Assembly: GCA_017455665.1 (NCBI GenBank) | Contig: JAFSZN010000168.1 | Coordinates: 1-47,041 of the forward strand | Direction: 5' to 3' | Length of the DNA stretch: 47,041 nucleotides | DNA from: Lentisphaeria bacterium | Lineage (GTDB): Bacteria; Verrucomicrobiota; Lentisphaeria; Victivallales; UBA1829 | Shown here: positions 13,767-45,368 of the stretch, piece after piece | Position numbering within the stretch: position 1 is the first letter of the stretch | Layout: each line of letters opens with the position of its first letter | Program-made: the position numbers and the translations under genes | Notes under the pieces: generated by a model | Told to the model about the DNA's origin: nothing | The model's input: the letters and a program-made list of their open reading frames with translations, nothing else | The model's database searches: none

Positions 13767-14839
13767 GACTTGGCTCCGTAGATCTGGGACAGGACCGACC
13801 AGACTTTCACGACCTGGACGGACGTGCCGATGGAGATGCGCACATAGCGTTTCGTGCGCGGATACGGGAAGTAGCGCACGAGGATGTTGCGGGCGCGGAG
13901 CTCGCGGAAACAGCGTTCGCCGTCGCCGTCGGGCGGCGCGGCAAAGAGGAAGTTCGTCTCGGAGGGGACGACCTCGAACCCGAGACCGAGCAGGCCGGTG
14001 CGGAGCATTTCGCGCGCCAGGCGGATCTTTTCGACGCAGTCCGTGAAATACTGTTTGTCCTGAAGCGCGGCGATGGCGAGCATCTGCGTGAGGTAGGAGA
14101 CGTTGTACGAGTCCTTCATCTTCATCATGCCGGCGATCGTGCGCGGATGCGCCAGGGCGAACCCGAACCGGAGTCCGGCGAGCGAACGCGATTTCGAGAA
14201 CGTGCGCGAAACGATCACGTTCGGGAAGCGGTTCACGAAGTCCGCGCAGTTGTCGGACGCGAAGTCGGCGTACGCCTCGTCGATCAGGACCATGCCCTTG
14301 TACTCGGCGCAGATGCGCTCCATCGTGGCGCGCGGGAAGCTGTTGCCGGTCGGGGCGTTCGGGCGCGCGATGAGAAAGAGGTTGGTGCCTTCGAGCTGTT
14401 TCAGGATGTCGTCCGGCAGGCCGAAATCGTCCGCGAGGTCAATGTAGCGCACCGGCGCACCGTGGAGTGCCGCCAGCGTGGGGTAGAGCGTGTAGGACGG
14501 GCGCAGGCAGGCGATCGGCAGGTCCGCCGAGGAGAAGCACCGCACCGTGATGCTCAGCGTGTCGTCCGAACCGTTGCACGCGATCACGTTGTCGCGCGTC
14601 AGGCCGAACATCTTCGCGATCTCGTCGCGGACGGGATCCGAGGTCGGATTCGGGTACAGGCGGAGGCGTTCCGGGTCGATGGAGGACAGCGCCTGAAACA
14701 CGCCGGGGCACGGCGGGAACGGGTTTTCGTTGGTGTTGAGCTTGATGAGCTCGGGGATATTGAGCTGTTCGCCGGGGGCGTAGCCGTCCATCCGGTCGAT
14801 GTCCTTACGGAAATAGGAGATGTATTTGTCGGGTGTCAT
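13763..14839 (-). CDS. hisC: Histidinol-phosphate aminotransferase
   Basis: This 358-residue fold-type I PLP enzyme converts imidazole-acetol phosphate plus glutamate to histidinol phosphate. Motifs are LNTNENPFPP near 34-43, ACNGSDD at 87-93, RPNAPTGN at 159-166, the PLP-ring Asp in LIDEAYADF (Asp187), and the Schiff-base Lys216 in SRTFSKSRSLAGLR. The C-terminal RYVRISIGT is present. AAAGG precedes the ATG. It follows hisD by 18 bp. HisC-like enzymes can also act on aromatic amino acids, but the hisD neighbour supports the histidine assignment. Confidence 0.93.
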   Translation of the reverse strand: MTPDKYISYFRKDIDRMDGYAPGEQLNIPELIKLNTNENPFPPCPGVFQALSSIDPERLRLYPNPTSDPVRDEIAKMFGLTRDNVIACNGSDDTLSITVRCFSSADLPIACLRPSYTLYPTLAALHGAPVRYIDLADDFGLPDDILKQLEGTNLFLIARPNAPTGNSFPRATMERICAEYKGMVLIDEAYADFASDNCADFVNRFPNVIVSRTFSKSRSLAGLRFGFALAHPRTIAGMMKMKDSYNVSYLTQMLAIAALQDKQYFTDCVEKIRLAREMLRTGLLGLGFEVVPSETNFLFAAPPDGDGERCFRELRARNILVRYFPYPRTKRYVRISIGTSVQVVKVWSVLSQIYGAKS

Positions 14840-14857
14840 TGCCGGGTGCCTTTCGCG

Positions 14858-16156
14858 TTAGTTCCGTCCGGTCCTGCGGATGGATGCGCTGCGCCCGTGG
14901 GCGTCCAGCCCCTCGATCTCGGCGAAGTGTTCGATCGCGTCCACCTCGCGCATCAGCGCGTTCTCCGTGAACGACAGGATGCTGCTGCGGCAGAAGAAAT
15001 CGCCCGCGGTGATGCCGTGGAAGAACCGGGCGGTCCCGGCGGTCGGCAGCACGTGGCTCGGGCCGGCGGTGAAATCGCCTGCGGGTTCCGGGGTCCACGG
15101 ACCGAGGAAGATCGCGCCCGCGGCGTGGATGCGCTTCGCGAATTTCGCGGGGGCGGCGCAGTGGAGCTCGAGGTGTTCCGGCGCGAACTTTCCGGCGATC
15201 TCCGCCGCCTCGTCCATGGAGGCGCAGCGGATCAGGAAGATGCCGTTCGCGAGCACCTTCTGAAGCGGCCCCTGGCGCGTGAGCGTTTTGGACTGCTCGA
15301 GGATCTGCTCCTGCACGGCTTTGAGCACTTTCTTGGAATCCGTGACCAGGACCGCCTGTTCGAGGCCGGAGCCGTGTTCCGCCTGCGACAGGATGTCGGC
15401 GGCGGTCCAGGCGGGGTTCACGCTGCCGTCGGCGACCACCATGACCTCGGATGGCCCGGCGACCATGTCGATGGCGACGCGCCCGTACACATAGCGTTTG
15501 GCGGCCGCGACGTAGGCGTTGCCCGGTCCGACGATCTTCTCGACGGCGGGGACCGTCTCCGTGCCGTAGGCGAGCGCGGCGATCGCCGTGGCGCCGCCCA
15601 TCTTGTAGACTGCCGTGGCGCCCGCGGCGACCAGCGCGTACAGCGTGGCGGGGTTGATGCTGCCGTCCTTGCGCGGAGGCGTGGCGGCGATGATCTCGCG
15701 GACTCCGGCGGCCTTCGCGATGGCGACCGTGTGGAGCGCGCTGGAGACCAGCGGAGCCGTGCCGCCCGGCACGTAGCACGCCACGCGGTCCATCGGCTTG
15801 AACTGTTCGCCGAGCGTGACGCCGGGACGCGGATGCGAGGTCCACGAACGCGGTATCTGCATCTTCGCGAACGCGGTGATGTTGTCGAACGCGAGCTTGA
15901 TCGCGGCTTTGGTCTTGCGGGAAACGGCTTTCTTCGCGGCGGCGATCTCCTCGTCGGAGACCTTGAGCTCGGGCGAGGTCAGGATCACGCGGTCGAACTT
16001 CGCGATCTGCGACAGGACCGCAGCGTCGCCGTGCGCACGGACCTCGTCCACGATCGCCTGTGCCCGCTCCTCGATCTCGGGGGGGCACGCCGGCCGGGTA
16101 TAAAGCGATTGAAGCGTCTGCTTGTAGTCGGCATCGGTGCAGTCAATGATTTTCAT
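14858..16156 (-). CDS. hisD: Histidinol dehydrogenase
   Basis: This 432-residue NAD- and zinc-dependent enzyme performs the last two oxidations of histidine synthesis. It shows YVPGGTAPLVSS near 128, GPGNAYVAAAKR near 205, IDMVAGPSE near 226, LSQAEHGSG near 256 (zinc-ligand His), and GPSHVLPTAG near 365 (the second metal-binding block). Length fits the family (about 430). ATG 16156, behind AAAGGA, is chosen over an in-frame ATG at 16243 whose 29 extra residues are not family-like. It is the first gene of the operon; the other his genes are not in the window. No convincing promoter was found upstream. Confidence 0.95.
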   Translation of the reverse strand: MKIIDCTDADYKQTLQSLYTRPACPPEIEERAQAIVDEVRAHGDAAVLSQIAKFDRVILTSPELKVSDEEIAAAKKAVSRKTKAAIKLAFDNITAFAKMQIPRSWTSHPRPGVTLGEQFKPMDRVACYVPGGTAPLVSSALHTVAIAKAAGVREIIAATPPRKDGSINPATLYALVAAGATAVYKMGGATAIAALAYGTETVPAVEKIVGPGNAYVAAAKRYVYGRVAIDMVAGPSEVMVVADGSVNPAWTAADILSQAEHGSGLEQAVLVTDSKKVLKAVQEQILEQSKTLTRQGPLQKVLANGIFLIRCASMDEAAEIAGKFAPEHLELHCAAPAKFAKRIHAAGAIFLGPWTPEPAGDFTAGPSHVLPTAGTARFFHGITAGDFFCRSSILSFTENALMREVDAIEHFAEIEGLDAHGRSASIRRTGRN

Positions 16157-33073: not shown

Positions 33074-34894
33074 ATGAAGAAAAACTACTCGGCATTCATT
33101 CTCGCGGCATTGGTCATTCCCGCAACAGGGCTTCTCGCGCAGGGACGCGGCGGCGGTCGCGCAGGCGGCGGAGGACGTCCCGGCGGCGCTTCTGTTCAGC
33201 CCGGCGGCGCTCGTCCCGGCGGCGGAGCGTTCAATCCCGGTCAGCCCGGCGGCGCTCGTCCCGGCGGCGGAGCGTTCAATCCCGGTCAGCCCGGCGGCGC
33301 CCGTCCCGGCGGAGGCGCATTCAATCCCGGCGGTCCTGTCCCCGGCGAACGCCGTCTCGGCGGCGCTGTGGTCATCCCCGGCGGACGTCCCGGCGTGCGT
33401 CCGCTCGATCCGCCTCAGCCGCCCCCTCCCCCGACGGGCGGCCCGGTGGTCGTCACTCCCGAATTCTTCGATCCGCTTCTGCCCGGCTACGGCTCCTACG
33501 GCTACAGACACGGCCGCGTGATCGTGGTCCCGCCGTCCGTCATCGTCACGGAACCGGACGTGGTGCAGCAGGAAGTCGTCACGGAGACCGAAACGGTCAC
33601 GACTCCCGTCCCGGCGGTCGAGGTGAAGACCGAGGAAAAAACCGCCGTGGCGGCCGCTCCGGTGAAGGCGGGCGATTTCCAGCTCGTGCTTCTGGAGGAC
33701 GATTCGGAGGACGCCACGCCCGCGGTCTGCTACAAGGCGGGCGAGGAGATGAAGTTCACGTTCTCCGTGAACAAGCTCGCGCAGAATCCGGTCGAAGGCA
33801 AGCTCTTCCTGAAGTGGAAGCGGTCCGGCGACGACGGCAAGGTCGAACAGGGCCGCACGGAGATCTCCGCCGGCCAGGCTCTCACACTCGCCACGAGCAT
33901 CGACCGTCCCGGATTCGTCCGCATCGAGGCTTCGCTGGAGGACGAAGCGGGACACGACCTGAAGAGCAAGTTCGACGGCGGCGCTGGCGCGGAGATCGAG
34001 AAGCTCACGCAGGCGGTGCCAGAACCCGAAGACTTTGACGCGTACTGGACGAAACAGAAGGAACAGCTCGCCGCCGTCGCCGCCACGCCCGAACTCAAAA
34101 AGATCAAGGCGAAACAGGACGGTTTCGACGCCTACGAGGTCAAGATCCCGTGCGCCGGGCCGCGTCCCGTGACGGGCTATCTCGTCATCCCGAGCGGCGC
34201 GGAGGCGAAATCCCTGCCGGCGAAGGTGCATTTCCAGGCGTACGGTGTGCGCGATCAGGCGGTCCCGGACGGCGTGCCGGGCATGGTCTACTTCGACGTC
34301 AACGCGCACGGGATCGAGCTGAGCCGGCCGAAATCCTACTACGACGGCATCCGCGCCCAGCTCGGCCACTACGCCTACAACAACGAGGAAAACAAGACGC
34401 CCGACACCTCGTATTTCCGCTACATGGCGGCGCGCGTGATCCGCGCGTTCGACTTCGTCAAGACGGTGTCGGCGTGGAACGGCAAGGACCTCGGCGTGAT
34501 CGGCTACAGCCAGGGCGGGCTTCAGGCGGCATGGGCGGCCGGGCTCGTCCCGGAGATCACCCACGCGGAGATCGGCATGCCGTGGTGCTCCGACGTCGGC
34601 TGCGCCAAGGCGGGCCGCCAGCGCGGCACCTGCCCGGACTACCAGCCCGGCCTCGACTACTTCGATCCGGTGAACCACATCAAACGCGCCCCCGCGACGT
34701 GCCTGGTCGACATCGTGCGCGCGGGTCTCGGCGATTATGTCGCGCAGCCCTCCGGCGTCGCCGTGCTGTTCAACAACGCCCCCGGCAAAAAGCGCGTGAT
34801 CTACTACCAGAACTGTGCCCACGCCGAGCCGAACGCCCTCTCCACGCCGGTCGTCATGCGGACCGAGGACTGGCCGGAACCCGATGAAAAATAG
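33074..34894 (+). CDS. CE7/AXE1-type acetyl esterase with Gly/Pro repeat N-terminus
   Basis: The protein has 606 residues. A signal peptide (cleavage near LLAQG) is followed by a low-complexity region (about 24-125) of Gly/Pro/Ala with three 15-residue units of the form PGGARPGGGAFNPGQ, then a Pro-run. Next comes a beta domain (about 200-310), and from about 318 an alpha/beta-hydrolase of the acetylxylan-esterase/cephalosporin-C-deacetylase family. Its nucleophile is Ser479 in GYSQGG, with likely Asp554 in GLGDYVAQPS and His583 in NCAHAEP. It would remove acetyl groups from xylan or acetylated oligosaccharides. Its place after GH51 fits hemicellulose breakdown, though a terminator separates them. 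AAAGGA lies 10 bp before the ATG. The Gly/Pro region may be a flexible or surface-associating linker. Confidence 0.85.
   Translation: MKKNYSAFILAALVIPATGLLAQGRGGGRAGGGGRPGGASVQPGGARPGGGAFNPGQPGGARPGGGAFNPGQPGGARPGGGAFNPGGPVPGERRLGGAVVIPGGRPGVRPLDPPQPPPPPTGGPVVVTPEFFDPLLPGYGSYGYRHGRVIVVPPSVIVTEPDVVQQEVVTETETVTTPVPAVEVKTEEKTAVAAAPVKAGDFQLVLLEDDSEDATPAVCYKAGEEMKFTFSVNKLAQNPVEGKLFLKWKRSGDDGKVEQGRTEISAGQALTLATSIDRPGFVRIEASLEDEAGHDLKSKFDGGAGAEIEKLTQAVPEPEDFDAYWTKQKEQLAAVAATPELKKIKAKQDGFDAYEVKIPCAGPRPVTGYLVIPSGAEAKSLPAKVHFQAYGVRDQAVPDGVPGMVYFDVNAHGIELSRPKSYYDGIRAQLGHYAYNNEENKTPDTSYFRYMAARVIRAFDFVKTVSAWNGKDLGVIGYSQGGLQAAWAAGLVPEITHAEIGMPWCSDVGCAKAGRQRGTCPDYQPGLDYFDPVNHIKRAPATCLVDIVRAGLGDYVAQPSGVAVLFNNAPGKKRVIYYQNCAHAEPNALSTPVVMRTEDWPEPDEK
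33200..33334 (+). repeat. Three tandem 45-bp repeats inside the esterase gene
   Basis: Units at 33200-33244 and 33245-33289 are identical; the third, 33290-33334, has diverged. A partial unit lies at 33179-33199. The period is a multiple of three, so copy-number change would keep the frame. Confidence 0.9.
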
Positions 34895-34996: not shown

Positions 34997-35578
34997 TCAA
35001 CATGATTCGCTGCCGTGTTCGCGGAGGTAGAAGAATTTCCACAACGGCGTCAAATGCATTGCCTGCAGGAACTCGCCTTGCAGAAGCATCGCCGGAATCT
35101 CATCGACGGGAAAAAGTCTCACGTCGAAGACCTCTCCTTCGTCCAGGTGCGGTTCGCCGATCTTCTTCACGCCGCACGCCAGAAAACAATGCGTCAGGTT
35201 GTTTGTTGTGGAAGGATTGGCGCTGATCGTGTCCAGCAGGGACCATTCCCCGCCGCCGTATCCGGTTTCCTCCAGCAATTCGCGCCGCGCCCCCGCAAGC
35301 GGGGAGTCATCGGTCGGCTCCAGCACACCGCACGGGATCTCCCACGACGTGCGCCCGATTCCATGTCGGTACTGCCGCTCCAGGATCATGCGGCCATCCT
35401 CCGTGATGGCGATGACGTTCACCCAGTCGGGATACTCCATCACATAGTATTCGGGAACGGTTCCGCCGTTGGGCAGTTGCAGGGATTCTCTACGCACTGT
35501 CAGCCACGGCCTGCGAATGAGGTATTCCGATTCCAGCACCTTCCATGGCGCTGCGTCAGCTTGTTCCGGATTGCTCAT
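34997..35578 (-). CDS. NUDIX hydrolase, ADP-ribose-pyrophosphatase-like
   Basis: This 193-residue protein has a NUDIX box GVLEPTDDSPLAGARRELLEETGY near 89-112 (described in part). The metal-binding core RELLEETG is exact; the first Gly-to-Glu spacing is slightly unusual. WEIPCGV before it and the AYxSPG-like segment ANPSTTNNLTH after it suit ADP-sugar pyrophosphatases, with the SPG of ADP-ribose enzymes replaced by NPS. It probably hydrolyses a nucleoside-diphosphate-linked compound in the cytoplasm; substrate not decidable. It has its own promoter at 35665-35692. Confidence 0.88.
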   Translation of the reverse strand: MSNPEQADAAPWKVLESEYLIRRPWLTVRRESLQLPNGGTVPEYYVMEYPDWVNVIAITEDGRMILERQYRHGIGRTSWEIPCGVLEPTDDSPLAGARRELLEETGYGGGEWSLLDTISANPSTTNNLTHCFLACGVKKIGEPHLDEGEVFDVRLFPVDEIPAMLLQGEFLQAMHLTPLWKFFYLREHGSESC

Positions 35579-35732: not shown

Positions 35733-37253
35733 TCATAGTTCAAGGAGACATGTCCACTGCTCCCCGACCGCAGTGTCCGCACCCGATGAAACAGCGGATT
35801 CGACATCGCAGGATTGAGGCGCACCGGAACACATCGCGGGCGGGATGAAGAGCGGAGGCGGTTTCACGCCGCCGGAAATACCGGCTTTCAGCGCGCGATA
35901 CGCTGCCATGGCGCCGTGCCGGAACCGGACTTCGACCGGTTTCAGCTGACCTTTGTACCGTGCGTCGTTGTAATAGATGTTGCGTTTCAGGATGCTTTCT
36001 GCCGCGTCCGCCAGCGCGGCAGGATCCGGCGGCGACCCGGAATCGTACAGGAAGACATAGCGGTCCAGCGTCCGCGCCGGGATCAGCATGGCAAAAGAGA
36101 ACAGCGAAAAACGTTGTTCCAGCTCGGCGATCAGGCGTTCCGCCTGCCCCGTGTGCAGTTTCTCGCCCCGGAGGTCGCACACGCCGCCGGACCGGTACAG
36201 AAAATCGAAACAGGGCGTCCGCGCGAGAAACCCGGTGCACCGCACGACGTCGTTCAGCGGGTAGAGTTCGCTCCCGTTTCCGGTCGAAAGGAAGACGGTG
36301 TAGACGCCGCCCTTCCGCACACGATCCAGCGGAATAAGCTCATCGCTTACAGAAGAATCTTCCGTCTCCGAATACGCCCGGAAATGCAGGGTATGGGACA
36401 GGCTCGCGGCGACATGCCGTCCGTCGTGCCAGGTCAGCGTCACGATCCCCTCCGTGGCGAGCAGCCCCTTCCCCTGGACGTCCACGCGCGGGAACATCGT
36501 CCGCAGCCGTGCGGCGTCGCCCGCGGCACGCGCCTGGTCCCAGCAGCTGATGACCCGCAGACGCCACCACAATGCCGCGAAATCGCGCCGTTCCAGCGCG
36601 GCGAGGACTTCCCCCGCCCTGCCCGGCATCGGCGCGTGCGTCCGCCCGTCGCCCCAGTCTCCGGTCTTCAGCGCCTCAGCGAGCTCGCCGGACCTCTCGA
36701 CGGCTCGGTCCAGCAGGATCAGCAGGTACGACGGATGCCACACGGAGACCAGCCCCAGATCCCGCTCGGAAAGCATGGCGAGGAGCGTGAGGAAGGCGTG
36801 TTTCTCCGGGTCGGCGATGCTCCCCGCGCCGTACGGGGCGCAGAAGACCGTCCGCGACACGCGTCGCTGGAGCGGAGAGAGATAGGACGCATCGTCCGTC
36901 GGGTCGGGCTTGAGCTTGATCCCGTCGGGAATCCGCAGCGCCGGGACCGGGCTGACGGACCAGTATTGTTTCTTCCGAAAGAGTCCGGGATGCCGCAGGA
37001 ACAGCAGCGCGATCCACGGGTTGATGCCCGCCAGGAACTCGCGTTTCAGCGCGGGCGTGAACGGGATCCATTTGGTCGGGCCGGTGGTGCCGCTGGTCGG
37101 CTCGTGGAACAGGATTTCGTCTGTGCCGGACGCCGTGCGCCTGCGGAGCGCGATCCTCTGCGCCGCACGCGGAAACGGCAGAAGCAGGACGAACAGCAGC
37201 AGGTCCGGCAGGGCGGACAGGAACCAGAGGAGATTTGCGAGGAAGAGCGGCAT
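35733..37253 (-). CDS. GH3-family (auxin-responsive GH3-like) acyl-adenylate-forming enzyme
   Basis: This 506-residue protein belongs to the GH3 branch of acyl-adenylating enzymes. It has the ATP-binding TSGTTGPTKWIPFTPA near 53-68, KLKPDPTDDASYLSP-like segment near 113-127, the central VQGKGLLATEGIVT near 258-271, and the C-terminal KPPPLFIP near 467. In plants GH3 proteins activate jasmonate, auxin or benzoates and join them to amino acids; bacterial members are uncharacterised. The first 25 residues are strongly hydrophobic, which suggests membrane association. A Ser/Ala-rich tail ends it. It abuts the GNAT-like gene directly and is the last gene of the radical SAM cluster, suggesting it joins the cluster's acid product to an amine. 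Confidence 0.85.
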   Translation of the reverse strand: MPLFLANLLWFLSALPDLLLFVLLLPFPRAAQRIALRRRTASGTDEILFHEPTSGTTGPTKWIPFTPALKREFLAGINPWIALLFLRHPGLFRKKQYWSVSPVPALRIPDGIKLKPDPTDDASYLSPLQRRVSRTVFCAPYGAGSIADPEKHAFLTLLAMLSERDLGLVSVWHPSYLLILLDRAVERSGELAEALKTGDWGDGRTHAPMPGRAGEVLAALERRDFAALWWRLRVISCWDQARAAGDAARLRTMFPRVDVQGKGLLATEGIVTLTWHDGRHVAASLSHTLHFRAYSETEDSSVSDELIPLDRVRKGGVYTVFLSTGNGSELYPLNDVVRCTGFLARTPCFDFLYRSGGVCDLRGEKLHTGQAERLIAELEQRFSLFSFAMLIPARTLDRYVFLYDSGSPPDPAALADAAESILKRNIYYNDARYKGQLKPVEVRFRHGAMAAYRALKAGISGGVKPPPLFIPPAMCSGAPQSCDVESAVSSGADTAVGEQWTCLLEL

Positions 37254-37949
37254 TTACGAAATGTCCCATTCCGGCTCAACGGCGCGGATGACGCGTTCGG
37301 CGCGTTCGTTCAGGTTCTCCGGCGAGACCGGCGCGAGGCAGCAGAGCTCGTCGCCGTCGGTCCAGCCGGGGTTCAGGCACCGGAACAGCACGGATTCCGG
37401 GTCGTTCCGCAGTTCGTCGGAGACCAGACGGTCCTTGCTGCCGGAGAAATGCAGGATGCCCTTTGACGCCACCCATTCGCGCGGGAAAAGATGCGCCGCC
37501 ACGGCGTCGCGGAGCCGGAGCAGACCGGGGTCGGATTCGTGCGAGGGGACGTAGACGCGGAAGAACGTCGGGAGGAACCGGTACGTCCGCGCGCCCTTGC
37601 TGATCAGGAACCAGTAGCGCGGATCGTCCGGGCAGTCCCGGATGAGGCGGAGCATGATGTGCCCGAACGCGCCCGCCAGCCCGAACTGCCTCCGGTCGGA
37701 CGCGTCCACCACGGTGTCCCCGCTGAACAAGATCCGCGCGCCGTCCGGCATCGCGATCAGTTTCTGCGTGGAGAACCCCGCGACGGAACCGTCGTTCAGC
37801 AGCAGGATCACGAGGTCCTTCTGCGACAGATCCCGCCGGAACGCGTCCGGCGTCGCGCCCGTGTAGTAGCGCCGGTACAGCGCCTCCATCTCTGCAACCG
37901 TCTCCGGGGAAAGGCGTTCCGGGGCGGTGATCCTGACACGCGTCGGCAT
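37254..37949 (-). CDS. GNAT-like acyltransferase, first of two
   Basis: This 231-residue protein has an N-terminal block like GNAT N-acyltransferases: PETVAEMEALYRRYYTG, LVILLLNDGSVAGFSTQKLIAM, and RILFSGDTVVDASDRRQFGLAGAFGHIML, which resembles the acyl-CoA-binding strand and helix. It continues with YWFLISKGARTYRFLPTFFRVYVP. The canonical R/Q-x-x-G-x-G/A loop is replaced by RRQFGLAGAFG. Its stop is separated by a single codon boundary from the GH3 start, and its own start lies 3 bp after the upstream stop. Co-translation with neighbours is likely. Family assignment is moderate; substrate unknown. Confidence 0.6.
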   Translation of the reverse strand: MPTRVRITAPERLSPETVAEMEALYRRYYTGATPDAFRRDLSQKDLVILLLNDGSVAGFSTQKLIAMPDGARILFSGDTVVDASDRRQFGLAGAFGHIMLRLIRDCPDDPRYWFLISKGARTYRFLPTFFRVYVPSHESDPGLLRLRDAVAAHLFPREWVASKGILHFSGSKDRLVSDELRNDPESVLFRCLNPGWTDGDELCCLAPVSPENLNERAERVIRAVEPEWDIS

Positions 37950-37952
37950 GGT

Positions 37953-39101
37953 TCAGACCTCCAGAAGCTCAAGATACGGGACGTTCGCGCAGTCGACCGC
38001 CGGACGGTCCCGCCACGACACCGTGTAAAGGTTGCTGTCGTATCCCCAGTGGGTGATCTGGCACAGCGACGGGAAAAACCGGCTGGTCTCGTGCGCGGCA
38101 AGCATCAGAATGGACCGGCGCGGGATGGCGTCCGCCGCCGCCCGGAGCAGCGCATGCAGCCGCACGCGCGGCGCGCCTTTCGGCGTATCCTTCCAGCGGA
38201 TCACATGCCCCCGTTTGCGAACCGGGAAGCGTTCGGGCCTGCCGTCCTCCGAAACGCACCAGTACGCCAGAATCCGGTGGTCCAGGTCCGACCCGGGACG
38301 CGGCATGCGCGGCCCCCGGACCAGCGCGAGCGCGGCATTGAGGACCGGACGGCACACGCGCAGCCAGGGCGCGTATCCGTCGACATGGATCTGGCGGTGT
38401 TTCCGGGGATCGGTCACCGCGCCGCACGCCGCGATCCGTCCGTTTTCGCGCACGACAATGAAATCCGAGGCGTTCAGCCCCGCCGGGAACCTGCCGTCCC
38501 CGAACACCGGAAAGAAATCAAGATGCCGCGCCGTATTTTTATAGAAATCAAATATCTCCGCCCGGTCGGATTCCGTGCCCCGGCTGACCGACAAATCGCG
38601 GCTCCTTTTCGCATCCAGGCGGATCGCGCCGGGCGTGAAGAGGAAGGTGCGGAACCTCTCCTGCGGATGGTACAACGGCAGTCCGCAGCGTCCGCCCTCC
38701 AGCACCCGGATCGCGGCGGCGTTGTCGCTGACGATCGTCGTGAAGCAGACGGGCGCGGGATGCGCCGCGTCGTATTCGCGCAGGAGCTCATAGCCGCGGA
38801 AGATCGCCCGGCTCCAGCGCTGTTCGGGCTTCAGGCGCAGGCTGCCGAGATACTCCGCCGTAACCGGCTGAGAGTTGAAGTAGACCGTCTTTTCGCACCG
38901 GAGTCCGCAGCCGGAGATCTCGCCCGTCGCGTCGTCCGTCCACAGGAAATGCTTCAGCTCGCGCCCCTTCAGCGCCTCCGCGGCGAAGAAATCGCCGTTA
39001 TGCGGAAACGACACGGAGACCGCGCCGCTCATCGGGATCCGGGTCAGGGCGAGCAGCGCCGCGCCGTCCTCCGGGGTCGCAAACCGGACGCCGCAGCTCA
39101 T
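37953..39101 (-). CDS. GNAT-like protein, second of two, two-domain
   Basis: This 382-residue protein begins with VRFATPEDGAALLALTRIPM, a typical GNAT first strand and helix, followed by HFLWTDDATGEISGCGLRC and YLGSLRLKPEQRWSRAIFRGYELL, the acetyl-CoA-binding region. A second, weaker repeat of the fold (about 190-380) contains DFIVVRENGRIAACGAV and LMLAAHETSRFFPSL. ATG 39101 overlaps the radical SAM stop (ATGA), with GGAGA close upstream. It sits between the radical SAM genes and the other GNAT-like gene. An amino- or fatty-acyl transfer role is inferred. Confidence 0.65.
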   Translation of the reverse strand: MSCGVRFATPEDGAALLALTRIPMSGAVSVSFPHNGDFFAAEALKGRELKHFLWTDDATGEISGCGLRCEKTVYFNSQPVTAEYLGSLRLKPEQRWSRAIFRGYELLREYDAAHPAPVCFTTIVSDNAAAIRVLEGGRCGLPLYHPQERFRTFLFTPGAIRLDAKRSRDLSVSRGTESDRAEIFDFYKNTARHLDFFPVFGDGRFPAGLNASDFIVVRENGRIAACGAVTDPRKHRQIHVDGYAPWLRVCRPVLNAALALVRGPRMPRPGSDLDHRILAYWCVSEDGRPERFPVRKRGHVIRWKDTPKGAPRVRLHALLRAAADAIPRRSILMLAAHETSRFFPSLCQITHWGYDSNLYTVSWRDRPAVDCANVPYLELLEV

Positions 39102-40426
39102 TTCTCCGGGTCTCCGAAGGGAAGCCCGCGCCGCCGTCCGACCTCCAGCCCCTGCGAGAAATTGGAGAGATAGAACAGCACGGTCTTGAAGAGCCCCCGG
39201 CAGTTCGCGCGCGGGTCCAGTCCGCGCCGCAGGATCGAGGAGAGGGAATAGAACTTCCGGCGGTACGCCTGGCAGTACGAGGCGAGCTCCTCCGGCGTGA
39301 AATGCGCCGGACGGAACACGACGTCGCCGAACTTGAACCGGTCGTCCTGCCACCAGTGTTCGTCGAGGAGCCGCCCCTCCTGCTTCAGGCGGTCGAAGAG
39401 CGAGGTGCCGGGGAACGGCACCAGGTGGTTGAAGGCGGCGAAGAAGAATTTGTTTTCGATGGCGAACCGGAGCGTCTTTTCGAAGGTCTCCGGCGTGTCG
39501 TCGTCGTAGCCGAAGACGAACGTGGCGTAGATGGAGATGCCGAACTCGCGCAGGTTGCGGATGCTGCGGACCATGTCCGCCTCCTCGTTGACCGACTTGC
39601 CCATCTGCCGCAGCGTCGTCTTCTGCAGCGACTCGAATCCGATCAGCACGCCCACACATCCGCTGTCGCGCATCAGGGCGAGCAGTTCGCGGTCCTGCGC
39701 CGTGTGGATGCTGAGCTGGGCGATCCAGCGTTTTTTCAGAGGCATGATCGCCCGGCAGAGCGCTTTCAGGCGCGGAACGTCCATGGCGAGGTTGTCGTCC
39801 ACGAAGAAGAGGTTTTTCTTTTTCAGCCCGCGCATCTCCTCCACCACATCCCCGATCGGGCGCGCCCGGTACGTCTGCCGGAAAAACTTCGTGATGGAGC
39901 AGAATTCGCAGTGGAAGCGGCAGCCGCGCGACGTCTCGACGAGCGACAGGATCCCGTAGTCGCGGTCGCCGAAGATGGAGCGGTCCGGGAACCGCCCCGC
40001 GAGGTCAACCGGCTGGTCGGAAAAGTAGCGTTTTTTGAGCGTGCCCGCCTTCAGGTCGGACAGGACCTCGGCCCAGACGTTTTCCGCCTGGCCGTCGATG
40101 ACCGCGTCCGCATGGAGCGCGACCTCCTCCGGCGCGAGCGAAGCCTGGAATCCGCCCATGATGACGGGACGGCCGCGCCGGTGGTATTCGGCGGCGATCT
40201 GGTAGGACCGTTTCGCCGTGTAGCACTCCACGCTGATGCAGACCGCGTCCGTCTCCGCGTCGAAGTCGATCTCGCCCAGGCGGTCGTCGAAGAACGTGCG
40301 GCCCCAGTCCGGCGGGGTCAGCCGGGAAAGCACCGCGATGGACAGAGGCTCCATGATCCAGGTCTTCGGATAGGTGGCGCCGCCGGGCTTGCGGCCGACC
40401 GCGGGCAGGATGAACGTCAGATGCAT
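39098..40426 (-). CDS. Radical SAM protein with B12-binding-like N-terminus (copy A)
   Basis: The protein has 442 residues. A Rossmann-like N-terminal domain of the B12-binding class covers 1-140 (RPVIMGGFQASLAPEEVALHADAVIDGQAE). The radical SAM core follows, with Cys169-x3-Cys173-x2-Cys176 (RGCRFHCEFCSI) for the 4Fe-4S cluster, ending near 350 with NHLVPFPGTSLFDRL. The cobalamin lower-ligand motif D-x-H-x-x-G is not seen, as in several methylases of this class. Relatives include hopanoid and bacteriochlorophyll enzymes that methylate or rearrange unreactive carbons. It overlaps the other radical SAM gene by 10 bp. Product unknown. Confidence 0.85.
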   Translation of the reverse strand: MHLTFILPAVGRKPGGATYPKTWIMEPLSIAVLSRLTPPDWGRTFFDDRLGEIDFDAETDAVCISVECYTAKRSYQIAAEYHRRGRPVIMGGFQASLAPEEVALHADAVIDGQAENVWAEVLSDLKAGTLKKRYFSDQPVDLAGRFPDRSIFGDRDYGILSLVETSRGCRFHCEFCSITKFFRQTYRARPIGDVVEEMRGLKKKNLFFVDDNLAMDVPRLKALCRAIMPLKKRWIAQLSIHTAQDRELLALMRDSGCVGVLIGFESLQKTTLRQMGKSVNEEADMVRSIRNLREFGISIYATFVFGYDDDTPETFEKTLRFAIENKFFFAAFNHLVPFPGTSLFDRLKQEGRLLDEHWWQDDRFKFGDVVFRPAHFTPEELASYCQAYRRKFYSLSSILRRGLDPRANCRGLFKTVLFYLSNFSQGLEVGRRRGLPFGDPEK

Positions 40427-41832
40427 AGCGCTTCCTTTTCCTCACCGGCGTTTCCGGCTGTTCCGGCGTCAGGCTGCGCGGGCGCGGCGTACCTCCGGGT
40501 GACGTCCAGCCCCTCCGGGAACCGGTCCTTGTCGCGCATGAGCTTGGGGAGATAGACCCGGTAGGCGAGGTTTCCGGCGAGCGCCACGGCGTACACCGAG
40601 CGTTTTGTGCTGAGGCGGTGCCGGATGGATTTCAGCGAGAACGTCTCGCGCCAGGCGAGCTTGAGCCCTTCGTCCAGCTCCAGCGGCGACATGTCGCGCG
40701 GCCGGATCACGACGTGCTGGGTGTCGTAGTACGACCAGTCGCGGTGCAGGATCCGGTTTTCGGCGTTCAGGCGGCGGTAGCACTCCGTGCCGGGGAACGG
40801 CGTGTAGGCGGCGTACCGGGGGATGTCGATGTGGAGCTCGTTCACGGCATCCACGGTGTCCTGGAAGATCGACATCGTCTCGCCTTCCAGCCCGAAGATG
40901 AAGCACCCCTGGATGATGATGCCGCGTTCGTGGAGGCGGCGGCACACCTCGAAATAGTTGTCCGGCGAATTGAAGCCCTTCCGCATGGAGTACAGCCCCT
41001 TCCGCATGACGGACTCGAAACCGAGGAGCATGTACGAGCAGCCGGACTCCTCGAGCGCGTTCATCAGCTCTTCGTCCGCCGTCGCCTTCGTGGTCATCAG
41101 GCCGCCCCATTTCTTCTTCAGCGGCTTCAGCGCATGGCAAAGCTCCAGCGCGTATTCGCGGTCCTCGCAGAGGCTCACGTCGTTGAACGCGAAGTGCTTC
41201 CCCGGCAGGGTGCGCACCTCGTCGATGACCTCCTGCACAGGGCGCGTGCTCCAGCCGAAATTCGCCCCGACGACCGCGCAGAAATCGCAGCGGTTCCTGC
41301 AGCCGCGCGTCGCGAAGACCGAGTTCGGCATCATGTAGCCGAATTTCTTCAGCAGGTCGCGCCGGGGAAACGGGATCCCGCTCAGGTCCTGCGGGCCCGG
41401 CGGCTGCGCGTAGCGCGGCTTCAACTGCCCGGCGACGAAATCGCGGCAGAGTTCCGGGAATGTCTTTTCCCCGAAACCCGTCGAGATCGTGTCCGCGTGG
41501 GCGGCGGCCTCGTCCGGCAGGAGCGTCGCGTGGACGCCGCCGATCGAGACTTTCGCGCCCTTCGAACGGAAATAGTCCGCCCAGTAATACCCACGGTTCG
41601 CCGTGCCCGTGATGATGCTGATGCAGACGATGTCGAACGGCTCCGAGGCGGGCACGCGCGACACGCTTTCGTCGCAGATGCGCACGTCGATCGGCAAGTC
41701 GGAGGGCACCAGCGCGGCGAGGTACGCCGCGGTCAGGGGCGCCTCGCGGAACGACGTCTTGATAAACGGGGGGATCTCCAGTTTGTGGATCTTGCCGTCG
41801 GGCAGCAGGATCAGCATTTTGTAACGTTTCAT
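40417..41832 (-). CDS. Radical SAM protein with B12-binding-like N-terminus (copy B)
   Basis: This 471-residue paralogue of the downstream protein has an N-terminal domain with VSIGGVHATLLPDEAAAHADTISTGFGE near 96-121, cluster Cys178-x3-Cys182-x2-Cys185 (RGCRNRCDFC), and TPFPGTECYRRL near 360. No D-x-H-x-x-G motif is seen. It is the promoter-proximal gene of the five-gene cluster. ATG 41832 is chosen, since an upstream in-frame ATG at 41916 adds Arg-rich sequence unlike the family; the ribosome site is weak (AAAGA). It probably acts on the same pathway as copy A. Enzymatic role unknown. Confidence 0.85.
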   Translation of the reverse strand: MKRYKMLILLPDGKIHKLEIPPFIKTSFREAPLTAAYLAALVPSDLPIDVRICDESVSRVPASEPFDIVCISIITGTANRGYYWADYFRSKGAKVSIGGVHATLLPDEAAAHADTISTGFGEKTFPELCRDFVAGQLKPRYAQPPGPQDLSGIPFPRRDLLKKFGYMMPNSVFATRGCRNRCDFCAVVGANFGWSTRPVQEVIDEVRTLPGKHFAFNDVSLCEDREYALELCHALKPLKKKWGGLMTTKATADEELMNALEESGCSYMLLGFESVMRKGLYSMRKGFNSPDNYFEVCRRLHERGIIIQGCFIFGLEGETMSIFQDTVDAVNELHIDIPRYAAYTPFPGTECYRRLNAENRILHRDWSYYDTQHVVIRPRDMSPLELDEGLKLAWRETFSLKSIRHRLSTKRSVYAVALAGNLAYRVYLPKLMRDKDRFPEGLDVTRRYAAPAQPDAGTAGNAGEEKEALCI

Positions 41833-41940: not shown

Positions 41941-41969
41941 AATATACCTTGCGTGTTGCGGTTTGTCAA
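41941..41969 (-). promoter_or_regulatory. Promoter of the radical SAM/GNAT/GH3 cluster
   Basis: On the minus strand TTGACA (41969-41964) and TATATT (41946-41941) are spaced by 17 bp, about 110 bp before the first ATG. This is a near-perfect match. It lies 22 bp from the LRR gene stop, so that gene's transcript may read into it. Confidence 0.85.
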
Positions 41970-41990: not shown

Positions 41991-42479
41991 TCATTCGTCC
42001 TCCTCGCCGTCTTCCCCGTCGTCCTCGGTCCCGGGCAATCCGCGCGACTCCATGGTCCGTCGCACGGCGCCCGCGCAGGGGCAATCAACGAACGCGACGG
42101 GCCGGATCTTTTTCACGCTCTCCGGGATCGCGATCGAGTCCAGCGAGCGGCATTGGTAGAACATCGCGTACGGGATCTCCGTCACGACGTCCGGGATCAC
42201 GAACTCGGTCACAGCCGCCGGGACGCGTTCCAGGCGCGCCGAGACCGGCGTGGATTTCCCCTCGGGATAAACATAAGTATAAGCGAAGCCGGGAATGCCG
42301 TCGCAAGTTTCCTCCGTATAGACGCTCCGTTCTTTCGGCGGCGTTTCGGCGGACGCCCCGCCGTTCTCCCTGTCCCGCGTCGCTTTGGCGATCCGCGCTG
42401 TGAAAACTGTGAAAAGCGCGGCGGAAACGACCAGCGCGGCGCAGCTCAGAACAGTGATCAGAAACAAACGGTGTTTCAT
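41991..42479 (-). CDS. Short BspA-type LRR protein with membrane anchor
   Basis: This 162-residue protein starts at ATG 42479, behind GGAG (7 bp spacing). A membrane helix or signal peptide lies at 4-29 (LFLITVLSCAALVVSAALFTVF). A Lys/Glu/Gly linker leads to about two LRR_5 repeats (about 88-135: VTEFVIPDVVTEIPYAMFYQC, RSLDSIAIPESVKKI, cited in parts). An acidic tail (EDDGEDGEEDE) ends it. It looks like a trimmed relative of the 548-residue protein at 19646. Function unknown; surface or periplasmic location inferred. Confidence 0.75.
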   Translation of the reverse strand: MKHRLFLITVLSCAALVVSAALFTVFTARIAKATRDRENGGASAETPPKERSVYTEETCDGIPGFAYTYVYPEGKSTPVSARLERVPAAVTEFVIPDVVTEIPYAMFYQCRSLDSIAIPESVKKIRPVAFVDCPCAGAVRRTMESRGLPGTEDDGEDGEEDE

Positions 42480-42616: not shown

Positions 42617-42732
42617 ACGGCGGCAAATTAAAGTTTAGTTTTTTTGCAAACGCATTTTTTCGATCTTTTTTCCGGACTTGAAAACGTCTTCCGCTAAGGA
42701 AAAAAAGCCGGGCGAAAAAAGCGTTTTCCGGC

Positions 42733-42760
42733 TTGACTTCCGGGCAAGGTCTGCTATAGT
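42733..42760 (+). promoter_or_regulatory. Promoter of the DNA-repair cassette
   Basis: TTGACT (42733-42738) and TATAGT (42755-42760) are spaced by 16 bp, 116 bp before the polymerase ATG. I found no recognisable LexA box in 42617-42875, which otherwise holds only AT-rich DNA. Confidence 0.75.
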
Positions 42761-42875
42761 ATCGTCCGGGATCTTCTCCCGCGCCACGCCGCGGACCGTT
42801 ACACATTTCCGGGCCGCCGGCGGCTTGCGAATCCGTCGCGAACGAATCCGCCGAACCCTGTTTCCTCACCGCTCC

Positions 42876-44384
42876 ATGAACACCCGCACCTGCATCGCCA
42901 TTGACCTGAAATCGTTCTACGCCTCGGTGGAGTGCGTCGACCGCGGGCTCAATCCGCTCACGACGAACCTCGTGGTGGCGGACGAAAGCCGCACGGAAAA
43001 GACGATCTGCCTCGCCGTTTCGCCGTCGCTGAAGGCGTACGGGATCCCCGGCCGCGCACGGCTGTTCGAGGTCGTACAGCGCGTCCGCGAGGTCAACGGG
43101 GAACGTCTCGACCGTGCGCCGGGGCACCGTTTCCGGGGGAAGTCCAGCAGCGCGCCCGAGCTCGCGAAGGATCCGTCGCTCGAGCTCGGCTGCATCGTCG
43201 CCGTACCGCGCATGGGCCGCTACATGGAGGTCAGCTCGCACATCTACAGCATCTACCTCAGATACATCGCGCCGGAGGACATCCACGTGTACTCCATCGA
43301 CGAGGTGTTCATCGAGGCGACCGCGTACCTGAAGCTGTACAGGCTCACGGCGCGCGAGTTCGCGATGAAGCTCGTCCGCGAGGTGCTGTCGGAGACCGGC
43401 ATCACCGCCACCGCCGGGATCGGGACCAACCTCTACCTCAGCAAGATCGCCATGGACATCGTCGCCAAGCACATCCCGGCGGACAGGGACGGCGTCCGCA
43501 TCGCCGAGCTGGACGAGCAGACCTACCGCGAAACGCTCTGGACGCACCGTCCGCTCACCGATTTCTGGCGCGTCGGGCACGGCTACGCCCGGCGCCTGGA
43601 GTCGCGCGGGATGCGCACGATGGGCGACGTGGCGCGGATGTCGGTGAAGAACGAGGACGTGCTGTACCGGCTCTTCGGGGTCAACGCCGAGCTGCTGATC
43701 GACCACGCGTGGGGCTGGGAGCCGGTCACGATTGCCGAGATCAAGGCGTACCGCCCGGAGAACAACAGCCTGAGCTCCGGCCAGGTGCTGAAGGAGCCGT
43801 ACGACTTCGAGAAGGCGAAGCTCGTGACGAAGGAGATGACCGACATGCTCGCGCTCAGCCTCGTCGAAAAGCACCTCGTGACCGACCAGCTGATCGTGAC
43901 AATCGGGTACGACGTCGCGAACCTGGCGACGCCGGAGCTCCGCCGCAAGTACAAGGGCGAGATCCACATCAACCACTACGGACGCGAAGTCCCGAAGAGC
44001 GCGCACGGAGCCGAAAACCTCGGCGGATATACCGCCTCGTCGCTGCGCATGGTCGAGGCGGCCGCGGCGATCTTCGACCGCGCGGTCGACCGGAATCTGC
44101 TGGTGCGACGCATCACCGTCGCCGCAAACCACATCGTGACCGAAAACGAGGCGCGCAAACAGCAGTCCGAGCCGGAACAGCTTGATCTTTTCACGGACAC
44201 CGCCGCGCTCAAGAAACAACAGGCCGCCGAGGAGGCCGAACGCGACCGCGAGAAACGCCTCCAGAACGCCATCCTGGACATCAAGCACAAGCTCGGCAAG
44301 AACGCCATTCTGAAGGGCATGAACCTGCTGGAGGGCGCGACCGCGAAGGAACGCAACGAGCAGGTCGGCGGGCACAAGGAGTGA
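42876..44384 (+). CDS. Y-family DNA polymerase (UmuC/DinB-like) with beta-clamp-binding motif
   Basis: This 502-residue translesion polymerase has the catalytic residues Asp10 in IAIDLKSFYASVEC and Asp142-Glu143 in YSIDEVFIEAT. Palm and thumb segments include TAGIGTNLYLSKIAMDIVAK near 179-198 and FWRVGHGYARRLESRGMRTMGD near 230-251 (helix-hairpin-helix). A little-finger domain follows. QLDLF at 435-439 is a good beta-clamp-binding motif, followed by a coiled helical tail. ATG 42876 is chosen where family similarity begins; no clear ribosome site precedes it. The order polymerase, YolD-like, Ogt with 8- and 16-bp gaps makes a repair operon. The UvrX/YolD pairing is typical of Firmicutes, hinting at transfer. 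Confidence 0.9.
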   Translation: MNTRTCIAIDLKSFYASVECVDRGLNPLTTNLVVADESRTEKTICLAVSPSLKAYGIPGRARLFEVVQRVREVNGERLDRAPGHRFRGKSSSAPELAKDPSLELGCIVAVPRMGRYMEVSSHIYSIYLRYIAPEDIHVYSIDEVFIEATAYLKLYRLTAREFAMKLVREVLSETGITATAGIGTNLYLSKIAMDIVAKHIPADRDGVRIAELDEQTYRETLWTHRPLTDFWRVGHGYARRLESRGMRTMGDVARMSVKNEDVLYRLFGVNAELLIDHAWGWEPVTIAEIKAYRPENNSLSSGQVLKEPYDFEKAKLVTKEMTDMLALSLVEKHLVTDQLIVTIGYDVANLATPELRRKYKGEIHINHYGREVPKSAHGAENLGGYTASSLRMVEAAAAIFDRAVDRNLLVRRITVAANHIVTENEARKQQSEPEQLDLFTDTAALKKQQAAEEAERDREKRLQNAILDIKHKLGKNAILKGMNLLEGATAKERNEQVGGHKE

Positions 44385-44392
44385 GGTGAACC

Positions 44393-44824
44393 ATGGAAAA
44401 ACAGCCTTATCCGTACGAGGACATTCTCCATCTGCCGCACCATGTTTCGAAGGAGCGTCCGCACATGTCCCTGCTCGACCGCGCCGCGCAGTTCTCGCCG
44501 TTCGCCGCGCTCGTCGGCTACGAGGACTTCATCGACGAGACGGCGCGCCTCACGACGCCGGAACGCGAGCTGGACGAGGCGGAAAAAGCCGAGCTGGACC
44601 GCCGCGTCGGCATCCTCGCCGCACACCTCGGGGAAAAACCGGTCGTCACGGTCGAGTATTTCGTCCCGGACACGCTCAAATCCGGCGGCGCGTACCGAAC
44701 ATGCACCGGGGCGCTCGTCCGGATCTCGCCCGTGAGAAAGACCCTGACCCTCGCCGACGGCACGTCGATCCGCTTCAAGGACGTCGTCGGGATCGAATCC
44801 GAGCTCTTCCGCGAAGAATTCTAG
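44393..44824 (+). CDS. YolD-like family protein
   Basis: This 143-residue protein matches the YolD-like family found beside Y-family polymerases in Firmicutes. It has MSLLDRAAQFSPFAALVGYEDFIDETARL near 25-53 (cited in part: DRAAQFSPFAALVGY), a helical central region, and an OB/SH3-like C-terminal part with VTVEYFVPDTLKSGGAYRT and LTLADGTSIRFKDVVGI. GAGG lies close to the ATG and it is 8 bp after the polymerase. YolD proteins are thought to assist or regulate the polymerase during SOS-like mutagenesis, by analogy with UmuD; not proven. Confidence 0.82.
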   Translation: MEKQPYPYEDILHLPHHVSKERPHMSLLDRAAQFSPFAALVGYEDFIDETARLTTPERELDEAEKAELDRRVGILAAHLGEKPVVTVEYFVPDTLKSGGAYRTCTGALVRISPVRKTLTLADGTSIRFKDVVGIESELFREEF

Positions 44825-44840
44825 CCCCCCTGCCCCCTCC

Positions 44841-45368
44841 ATGGATACACAAGTGGATTACGTTCATCGCTACCAGTCGCCGCTCGGCGGGATCACGATC
44901 GCTTCGGACGGAGCCGCGCTCGTCGGGCTGTGGTTCGACGATCAGCGGTTTTTCGCCGCTTCGCTTTCCCCTGAACAGGAAGAAAAGAATCTCCCCGTTT
45001 TTGAACAGGCGGACCGCTGGCTGGACCTTTATTTCGGCGGCAGGGATCCCGGATTCACGCCGCCGGTCAGGCTCCGCACCACGGAATTCCGGCAGGCAGT
45101 CTGCACCATCATGCTCACGATCCCGTACGGACGCACCATGACCTACGGAAAGATCGCGGAATTTTTCGCCCGGCAGAAAGGCGTCCGGCGCATGTCGGCG
45201 CAGGCGGTCGGAGGCGCGGTCGGACACAACCCCGTTTCCCTGATCGTGCCGTGCCACCGGGTCATCGGCGCGGGCGGCGCGCTGGTCGGATACGGAGGCG
45301 GGCTTGAACGAAAGGCGGCGCTGCTTGCCTTGGAGCACGCCGACCTCTCAGGCGGATTCAGCCCGTGA
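44841..45368 (+). CDS. ogt: Methylated-DNA--protein-cysteine methyltransferase
   Basis: This 175-residue protein transfers the methyl group from O6-methylguanine to its own Cys138, in IVPCHRVIGAGG. The helix-turn-helix region preceding it is EFRQAVCTIMLTIPYGRTMTYGKIA, cited in parts, with the QAVGGAVGHNP segment following. The N-terminal ribonuclease-like domain (SPLGGITIASDGAALVGLWF) is present. Length fits Ogt. It has no clear ribosome site and probably depends on coupling to the preceding gene (16 bp gap). It completes a damage-tolerance and alkylation-repair cassette. Confidence 0.93.
   Translation: MDTQVDYVHRYQSPLGGITIASDGAALVGLWFDDQRFFAASLSPEQEEKNLPVFEQADRWLDLYFGGRDPGFTPPVRLRTTEFRQAVCTIMLTIPYGRTMTYGKIAEFFARQKGVRRMSAQAVGGAVGHNPVSLIVPCHRVIGAGGALVGYGGGLERKAALLALEHADLSGGFSP

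Follow-up and report, generated by a model that had tools for sequence, protein, structure and literature searches.

A compact operon of two cobalamin-type radical SAM proteins, two GNAT-fold proteins and a GH3-like ligase, with relatives in several bacterial phyla

What might be made by an operon that places two cobalamin-type radical SAM proteins beside two acyltransferase-like proteins and a ligase of the GH3 family? The question is raised by five genes in a 47,041-nt stretch of DNA from a Lentisphaeria bacterium (assembly GCA_017455665.1, contig JAFSZN010000168.1; the whole stretch is referred to here as the window). The genes lie on the minus strand, beginning with rSAM-B (40417..41832, start ATG at 41832) and continuing with rSAM-A (39098..40426, 10-bp overlap with rSAM-B), GNAT-2 (37953..39101, 4-bp overlap with rSAM-A), GNAT-1 (37254..37949, 3-bp gap to GNAT-2) and GH3 (35733..37253, no gap to GNAT-1); these open reading frames, with their coordinates, overlaps and gaps, reproduce exactly those of a first-pass annotation of the window. 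All five are under purifying selection (dN/dS 0.10-0.26 against the close relative L003; collected loci are given L numbers, and genomes G numbers). In our judgement the chances are about even that the operon represents, in compact form, a cluster found across phyla that makes an amide-linked, probably fatty-acyl metabolite of the aminolipid or N-acyl amino acid/amine type. The first-pass annotation knew of no described pathway with this gene set, and in the open-access literature we likewise found none for the whole set and none that combines GH3 with radical SAM enzymes.

The conserved core of the cluster family

Loci were collected by searching bacterial genomes with rSAM-B and then three phylum samples with GNAT-1, to which plasmid records were added, and the gene content of the collected stretches is based on a census with hidden Markov models. 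The sample covers only part of the available genomes, many of those used are incomplete metagenome assemblies, and some stretches stop at contig edges, where the absence of a gene carries no weight; the names of neighbouring genes in other clusters are annotations or Pfam matches, not functional tests.

GNAT-1 matches occur in 20 of 388 genomes in the sample of the window's phylum, in 4 of 151 for the phylum of L011 (Fibrobacterota by label) and in 4 of 198 for that of L012 (Spirochaetota). Within the window's phylum, GNAT-1, GNAT-2 and GH3 are contiguous in all 19 genomes with a clear GNAT-1; the twentieth match (G013, 24-27% identity) is without partner genes. The same triad is found in Fibrobacterota and Spirochaetota, on a Citrobacter plasmid, and in Burkholderia and Acinetobacter. 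Its adjacency is not due to chance, because PF03321, the GH3 family, is rare, being matched at all in just 6 of 61 relatives. The possibility raised in the first-pass annotation, that the genes are not kept together in related genomes, thus did not hold.

All five families occur in the window's order in L002, L003, L005, L009, L010, L050-L054 and further loci, frequently with additional genes separating rSAM-B from rSAM-A, and the rSAM pair is absent from L057 and L062. The invariant core is therefore GNAT-1, GNAT-2 and GH3, with the rSAM pair common but dispensable; the annotated five-gene unit stands as a group conserved together, but not as a universal set. Additional genes in other clusters encode further radical SAM proteins, a hexapeptide-repeat protein, an amidohydrolase, SnoaL-like proteins, FA_desaturase with or without AurF (L060-L062), PAP2 (L010 and the Citrobacter cluster), a methyltransferase (L058), a sulfotransferase (L071), and FA_desaturase together with a Rieske protein (Burkholderia). 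Compared with these larger clusters, that of the window seems to be truly reduced, because their hexapeptide gene and second radical SAM gene have no close copy in its own genome (only 70% complete) or in G004 and G005, as judged by searches of which one had no positive control.

The IncFIB/IncFII plasmid NZ_CP134684.1 of a Citrobacter portucalensis gull isolate (L078, 51417-63512) carries a related cluster that includes five radical SAM genes, in the order GNAT-1, GH3, two rSAMs, GNAT-2, two rSAMs, PAP2, SnoaL-like, rSAM, desaturase; the E. coli genome collection contains no near copy of it. Because members occur in several phyla and on an enterobacterial plasmid, one could look for a product in hosts that are tractable. 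In Acinetobacter baumannii NZ_CP064203.1 (L080, 9132-16811) the order is HlyD, major facilitator superfamily (MFS) transporter, GNAT-1, GH3, outer-membrane efflux protein, GNAT-2, without an rSAM.

Two side observations belong here. A peptidase U32 family gene (13820-15028) lies inside the L011 Fibrobacteria cluster, next to extra B12-type rSAM genes. Azospirillum L079 and L081 each have a lone GNAT-1-like protein (about 25% identity), with no GH3 or GNAT-2 detected; in L079 a fatty acyl reductase-like gene is nearby.

The five proteins

The ligase is a GH3 protein, as had been proposed, resembling the acyl-acid amido synthetases that conjugate plant hormones. Its N-terminal and central domains score 36.1 and 35 bits against PF03321 (cut-off 23.6), the C-terminal domain falls under the cut-off at 16 bits, and a profile of its relatives matches plant GH3 structures at E 7.5e-32. 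The nucleotide-binding motifs I-III read TSGTTGPTK (containing S54), KGLLATEG and YPLND, followed by the invariant K464, and in the alignment of GH3 relatives the elements TSG..K, ATEG, YxxxD and the C-terminal lysine are invariant or almost so. In a tree that includes three other bacterial GH3s, the cluster members form a group of their own; the support is modest and the branches are long.

The only bacterial GH3 pathway that we found in the open-access literature searched is the OlsH/OlsI ornithine-lipid pathway of Singulisphaera acidiphila. OlsH forms N-acyl-ornithine from free fatty acids with ATP, without coenzyme A (CoA) or acyl carrier protein (ACP), and requires the serine of motif I (PMC12493201). 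Like the window protein, OlsH is a GH3-family ligase whose gene belongs to a bacterial operon (PMC12493201). The window protein has motif I with the serine that OlsH requires, the motifs are divergent in both, and an amide from a free fatty acid would be expected. The partners differ, being in that pathway the alpha/beta-hydrolase OlsI and the N-methyltransferase OlsG, with no GNAT or radical SAM partners described in the sections consulted (PMC12493201). Neither an OlsI-type hydrolase nor an OlsG-type methyltransferase is present in the window operon, and among the annotated genes of the other clusters there is none except the L058 methyltransferase. Amide formation by the window GH3 is likely, since the motif I serine, the motif II and III equivalents and the C-terminal lysine are all kept. 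The acid is less certain than the amide; a fatty acid is the most likely substrate, favoured by the hydrophobic N-terminal segment seen in the window protein and in many cluster GH3s, by the N-myristoyltransferase-like fold of GNAT-2, and by desaturase, PAP2 and acyl-reductase neighbours.

The first-pass annotation had called both GNATs correctly, an identity visible only by structure prediction. Neither protein has a GNAT match in Pfam or NCBIfam, and sequence-profile searches of the PDB return no relative for either and no N-myristoyltransferase for GNAT-2. AlphaFold models were built from alignments of 22 relatives and compared to the PDB by Foldseek. The GNAT-1 model (pLDDT, the per-residue confidence, 94.6) has a single GNAT fold, with a best match of E 5e-6, a target-normalised template-modelling (TM) score of about 0.4-0.6, and 199 PDB matches at E<=1e-3, those among them that were listed being GNAT proteins. 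The canonical acetyl-CoA motif (R/Q)xxGx(G/A) is missing, and a conserved LAGxFGH follows the fourth strand instead; the model identifies GNAT-1 as a divergent GNAT, of an unnamed family. The GNAT-2 model (pLDDT 88.7) has two GNAT folds in tandem, and N-myristoyltransferases are its best matches in the PDB (E 3e-13, TM 0.5-0.6). It matches the two-GNAT architecture of the eukaryotic N-myristoyltransferases and other tandem GNATs over its full length, but at 10-13% identity and without a Pfam match to the N-myristoyltransferase family. OlsB of the OlsBA/OlsF aminolipid pathways is likewise a GNAT-type N-acyltransferase, producing N-acyl amino acids, but neither window GNAT has an OlsB-type Pfam match.

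Both radical SAM proteins contain CxxxCxxC (CRNRCDFC in rSAM-B, CRFHCEFC in rSAM-A), and both lack DxHxxG, as the annotation had noted; absence of this motif is usual in cobalamin-binding radical SAM enzymes. Every relative scanned, 19 of rSAM-A and 17 of rSAM-B, matches both the Radical_SAM and the B12-binding domain at E<=1e-3. For the B12-binding profile the best family members reach E 6e-12 and 2.7e-11, while the window proteins score 19.4 and 29.8 bits against a curated cut-off of 32.1. In a tree of 62 cobalamin-type rSAMs the two window proteins fall in separate clades, of 27 rows (support 100/97) and 32 rows (100/99), each of which includes loci from the window's phylum, Lentisphaerota, Fibrobacterota and the Citrobacter plasmid, and clusters normally have one rSAM per clade. 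On this sequence evidence rSAM-A and rSAM-B represent two distinct ancient lineages that are usually paired, and the pairing is therefore old.

The best-scoring named families for both proteins in NCBIfam are HpnJ (TIGR03471) and BchE (TIGR02026), at 69-102 bits versus cut-offs of 481-578, a ladderane-type lipid B12-rSAM is among the other NCBIfam neighbours, and the nearest solved relatives are AprD4 and the unnamed rSAM 9ccb. HpnJ forms a hopanoid cyclitol ether (PMC12583986), and AprD4 is a diol dehydratase (PMC5461906). The window proteins share the domain order of B12-binding followed by radical SAM with HpnJ, BchE, OxsB and the proposed ladderane enzymes, non-methylating cobalamin-dependent radical SAM enzymes of which only a handful are known (PMC13142503). 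They differ from HpnJ and BchE in forming two conserved lineages alongside GNATs and GH3, in clusters where no hopanoid or chlorophyll genes were seen. By analogy with the known non-methylating enzymes (PMC13142503), the pair may form rings or rearrange carbon; it may also have a methylating role. Two other assignments were rejected: ladderane synthesis proper, as TIGR04072 scores 80.7 bits versus 360 and the operon has no fatty-acid synthase genes, and a defence role, as PADLOC gave only a weak match for rSAM-A (27 bits), taken as generic radical SAM similarity, and nothing useful for the GNATs.

A proposed product and its rivals

Substrates, step order, product and role are inferred from these features. 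GH3 would convert a carboxylic acid (a fatty acid is most likely) to its acyl-adenylate (acyl-AMP) and join it to an amine, as the chemistry of the family and OlsH suggest. GNAT-1 and GNAT-2, judged by their fold, would move acyl groups from CoA or ACP thioesters onto amine or hydroxyl positions. The rSAM pair could remodel, without oxygen, a carbon that is not activated, either in the acyl chain or in the head group, by closing a ring, rearranging the skeleton, making a C-C bond or adding a methyl group. In other members of the family, desaturase, AurF-like or Rieske enzymes accompany or replace the rSAMs, which would amount to varied oxidative tailoring on a GNAT-GNAT-GH3 core.

An amide-linked, lipid-like product is the best explanation because OlsH, the characterised bacterial GH3, makes N-acyl-ornithine by ligating free fatty acids to ornithine (PMC12493201); this is also the better-supported half of the first-pass annotation, which had guessed at an amidated, lipid-like compound, whereas its sequence of radical chemistry before amidation and its hormone-like or signalling role are conjecture. 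The lipid-type accessory genes (FA_desaturase, PAP2, and the fatty-acyl-reductase-like gene near the Azospirillum GNAT-1 relative) are in its favour, as are the NCBIfam neighbours of the rSAMs (HpnJ, BchE and the ladderane-type enzyme), the best matches of GNAT-2 and the hydrophobic N-terminus of many cluster GH3s. Several observations weigh against it. An acyl carrier protein, a ketosynthase and a partner of the OlsI type are all missing from the cluster, and the amidohydrolase, SnoaL and sulfotransferase accessory enzymes are not indicative of lipids. The resemblance of GNAT-2 to N-myristoyltransferases is at the level of fold only, given the identity and TM values above, and those enzymes acylate peptides. 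The rSAM scores to lipid families are far under the cut-off (102 versus 578 bits), and the closest solved relative, AprD4, is a sugar dehydratase. Finally, the rSAM pair and a desaturase are found together in L060, L061, L072, L078 and L084, so that the idea of replacement is a loose one.

More tentatively, and with somewhat less confidence than doubt, we suggest that the triad defines an unrecognised class of biosynthetic cluster, in which acyl-amide lipids or metabolites would be made independently of carrier-protein assembly lines, after which a dedicated non-methylating cobalamin radical SAM pair would reshape them into a new structural class (e.g., ring-bearing N-acyl lipids) that moves among gut, soil and clinical bacteria. 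In any case, the family links an orphan bacterial GH3 group, in several phyla, with four unnamed protein groups, two of them GNAT families and two of them cobalamin-type radical SAM lineages. With a conserved radical SAM pair tied to a likely amide ligase, questions on both kinds of enzyme are directly testable.

The strongest rival is that the product is not a membrane lipid but a secreted small-molecule natural product, which could serve as a signal, a surfactant, an antibiotic or a metal binder. GH3 and the GNATs would make a pseudo-peptide-like N-acyl conjugate, with the amino-acid or amine part tailored by the rSAMs. The HlyD-MFS-outer-membrane-efflux set that accompanies the A. baumannii triad fits such a product. 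The tailoring genes vary strongly, the clusters occur sporadically and one is carried by a plasmid, as is typical of specialised metabolites. In L062 the desaturase-like protein has a weak score to the free-arginine hydroxylase GntB, and a Streptomyces GH3 lies among polyketide synthase and aminotransferase genes, though outside the main GH3 group here. However, the window operon includes neither a transporter gene nor one for resistance, and acyl chains are indicated by the desaturase, PAP2 and N-myristoyltransferase-like fold, so that we consider this explanation possible but rather unlikely. Modification of the envelope or another macromolecule is improbable. Here the target of acylation or amidation by the GNATs and GH3 would be a sugar, a peptide or a lipid carrier of the cell surface, and the rSAMs would reshape a sugar in the manner of HpnJ or AprD4; the closest named rSAM families do act on sugar-bearing substrates (HpnJ, PMC12583986; AprD4, PMC5461906) and some clusters have a PAP2 phosphatase, but there is no glycosyltransferase, flippase or polymerase among the annotated cluster genes. 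A chance neighbourhood or decaying assemblage of five genes without joint function, which would suit the presence of the cluster in so few genomes of the genus, is contradicted by the cross-phylum conservation of the triad and rSAM pair, by purifying selection and by the overlapping genes, and can be dismissed as extremely improbable.

Genomic site, promoter and neighbouring genes

Within the genus, rSAM-B is present at high score in 3 of 13 sampled genomes. In L003 (G005) the cluster occupies the same site as in the window, between NUDIX (window 34997-35578) and Y-family polymerase (window 42678-44384) genes. In the sister species G004 (L087) these two genes are adjacent, about 580 bp apart, and the site is empty, while the cluster of this genome is on a different contig. 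This configuration fits insertion or relocation of the cluster within the genus, in either direction, and the distribution across several bacterial phyla is patchy and apparently mobile. In a small metagenome-assembled genome drawn with the Fibrobacterota sample (L073, G496), rSAM-A is about 87% identical to that of the L009 cluster, labelled Lentisphaerae, reflecting either a recent transfer or a mis-binned contig.

The near-consensus promoter reported at 41941 was recovered upstream of rSAM-B as a sigma70-like TTGACA-17-TATATT on the minus strand (41941..41969, 11/12 consensus matches), with TTGACA at 41969-41964, a 17-nt spacer and TATATT at 41946-41941. It is the top sigma70-like match of the region; by itself it is weak evidence, since 7.3 kb contain two such sites versus a mean of 0.9 in shuffled sequence. 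L002 and L003 also have promoter-like sequence directly upstream, at a non-homologous position as read by eye. An alternative rSAM-B start at ATG 41916 is unlikely, because the L002 frame is not open that far.

The flanking genes were rejected as cluster members, the downstream NUDIX gene because it adjoins the polymerase gene in G004 without the cluster, and the upstream leucine-rich repeat (LRR)-like gene (41991-42479) because it has no match beside the L002 and L003 clusters. The LRR-type gene separates the window cluster from promoter-like sequence further upstream; in L003, sequence like this upstream promoter stands immediately before rSAM-B, which suggests that the LRR gene was gained by insertion or lost by deletion. 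Beyond it, window positions 42678-45368 hold adjoining Y-family polymerase-like, YolD-like and alkyltransferase (Ogt)-like genes, named by sequence reading, whose order is kept in the genus. On the other side, an esterase-like gene (window 33200-33400) has near-identical GGARPGGGAFNPGQP repeats close to its N-terminus.

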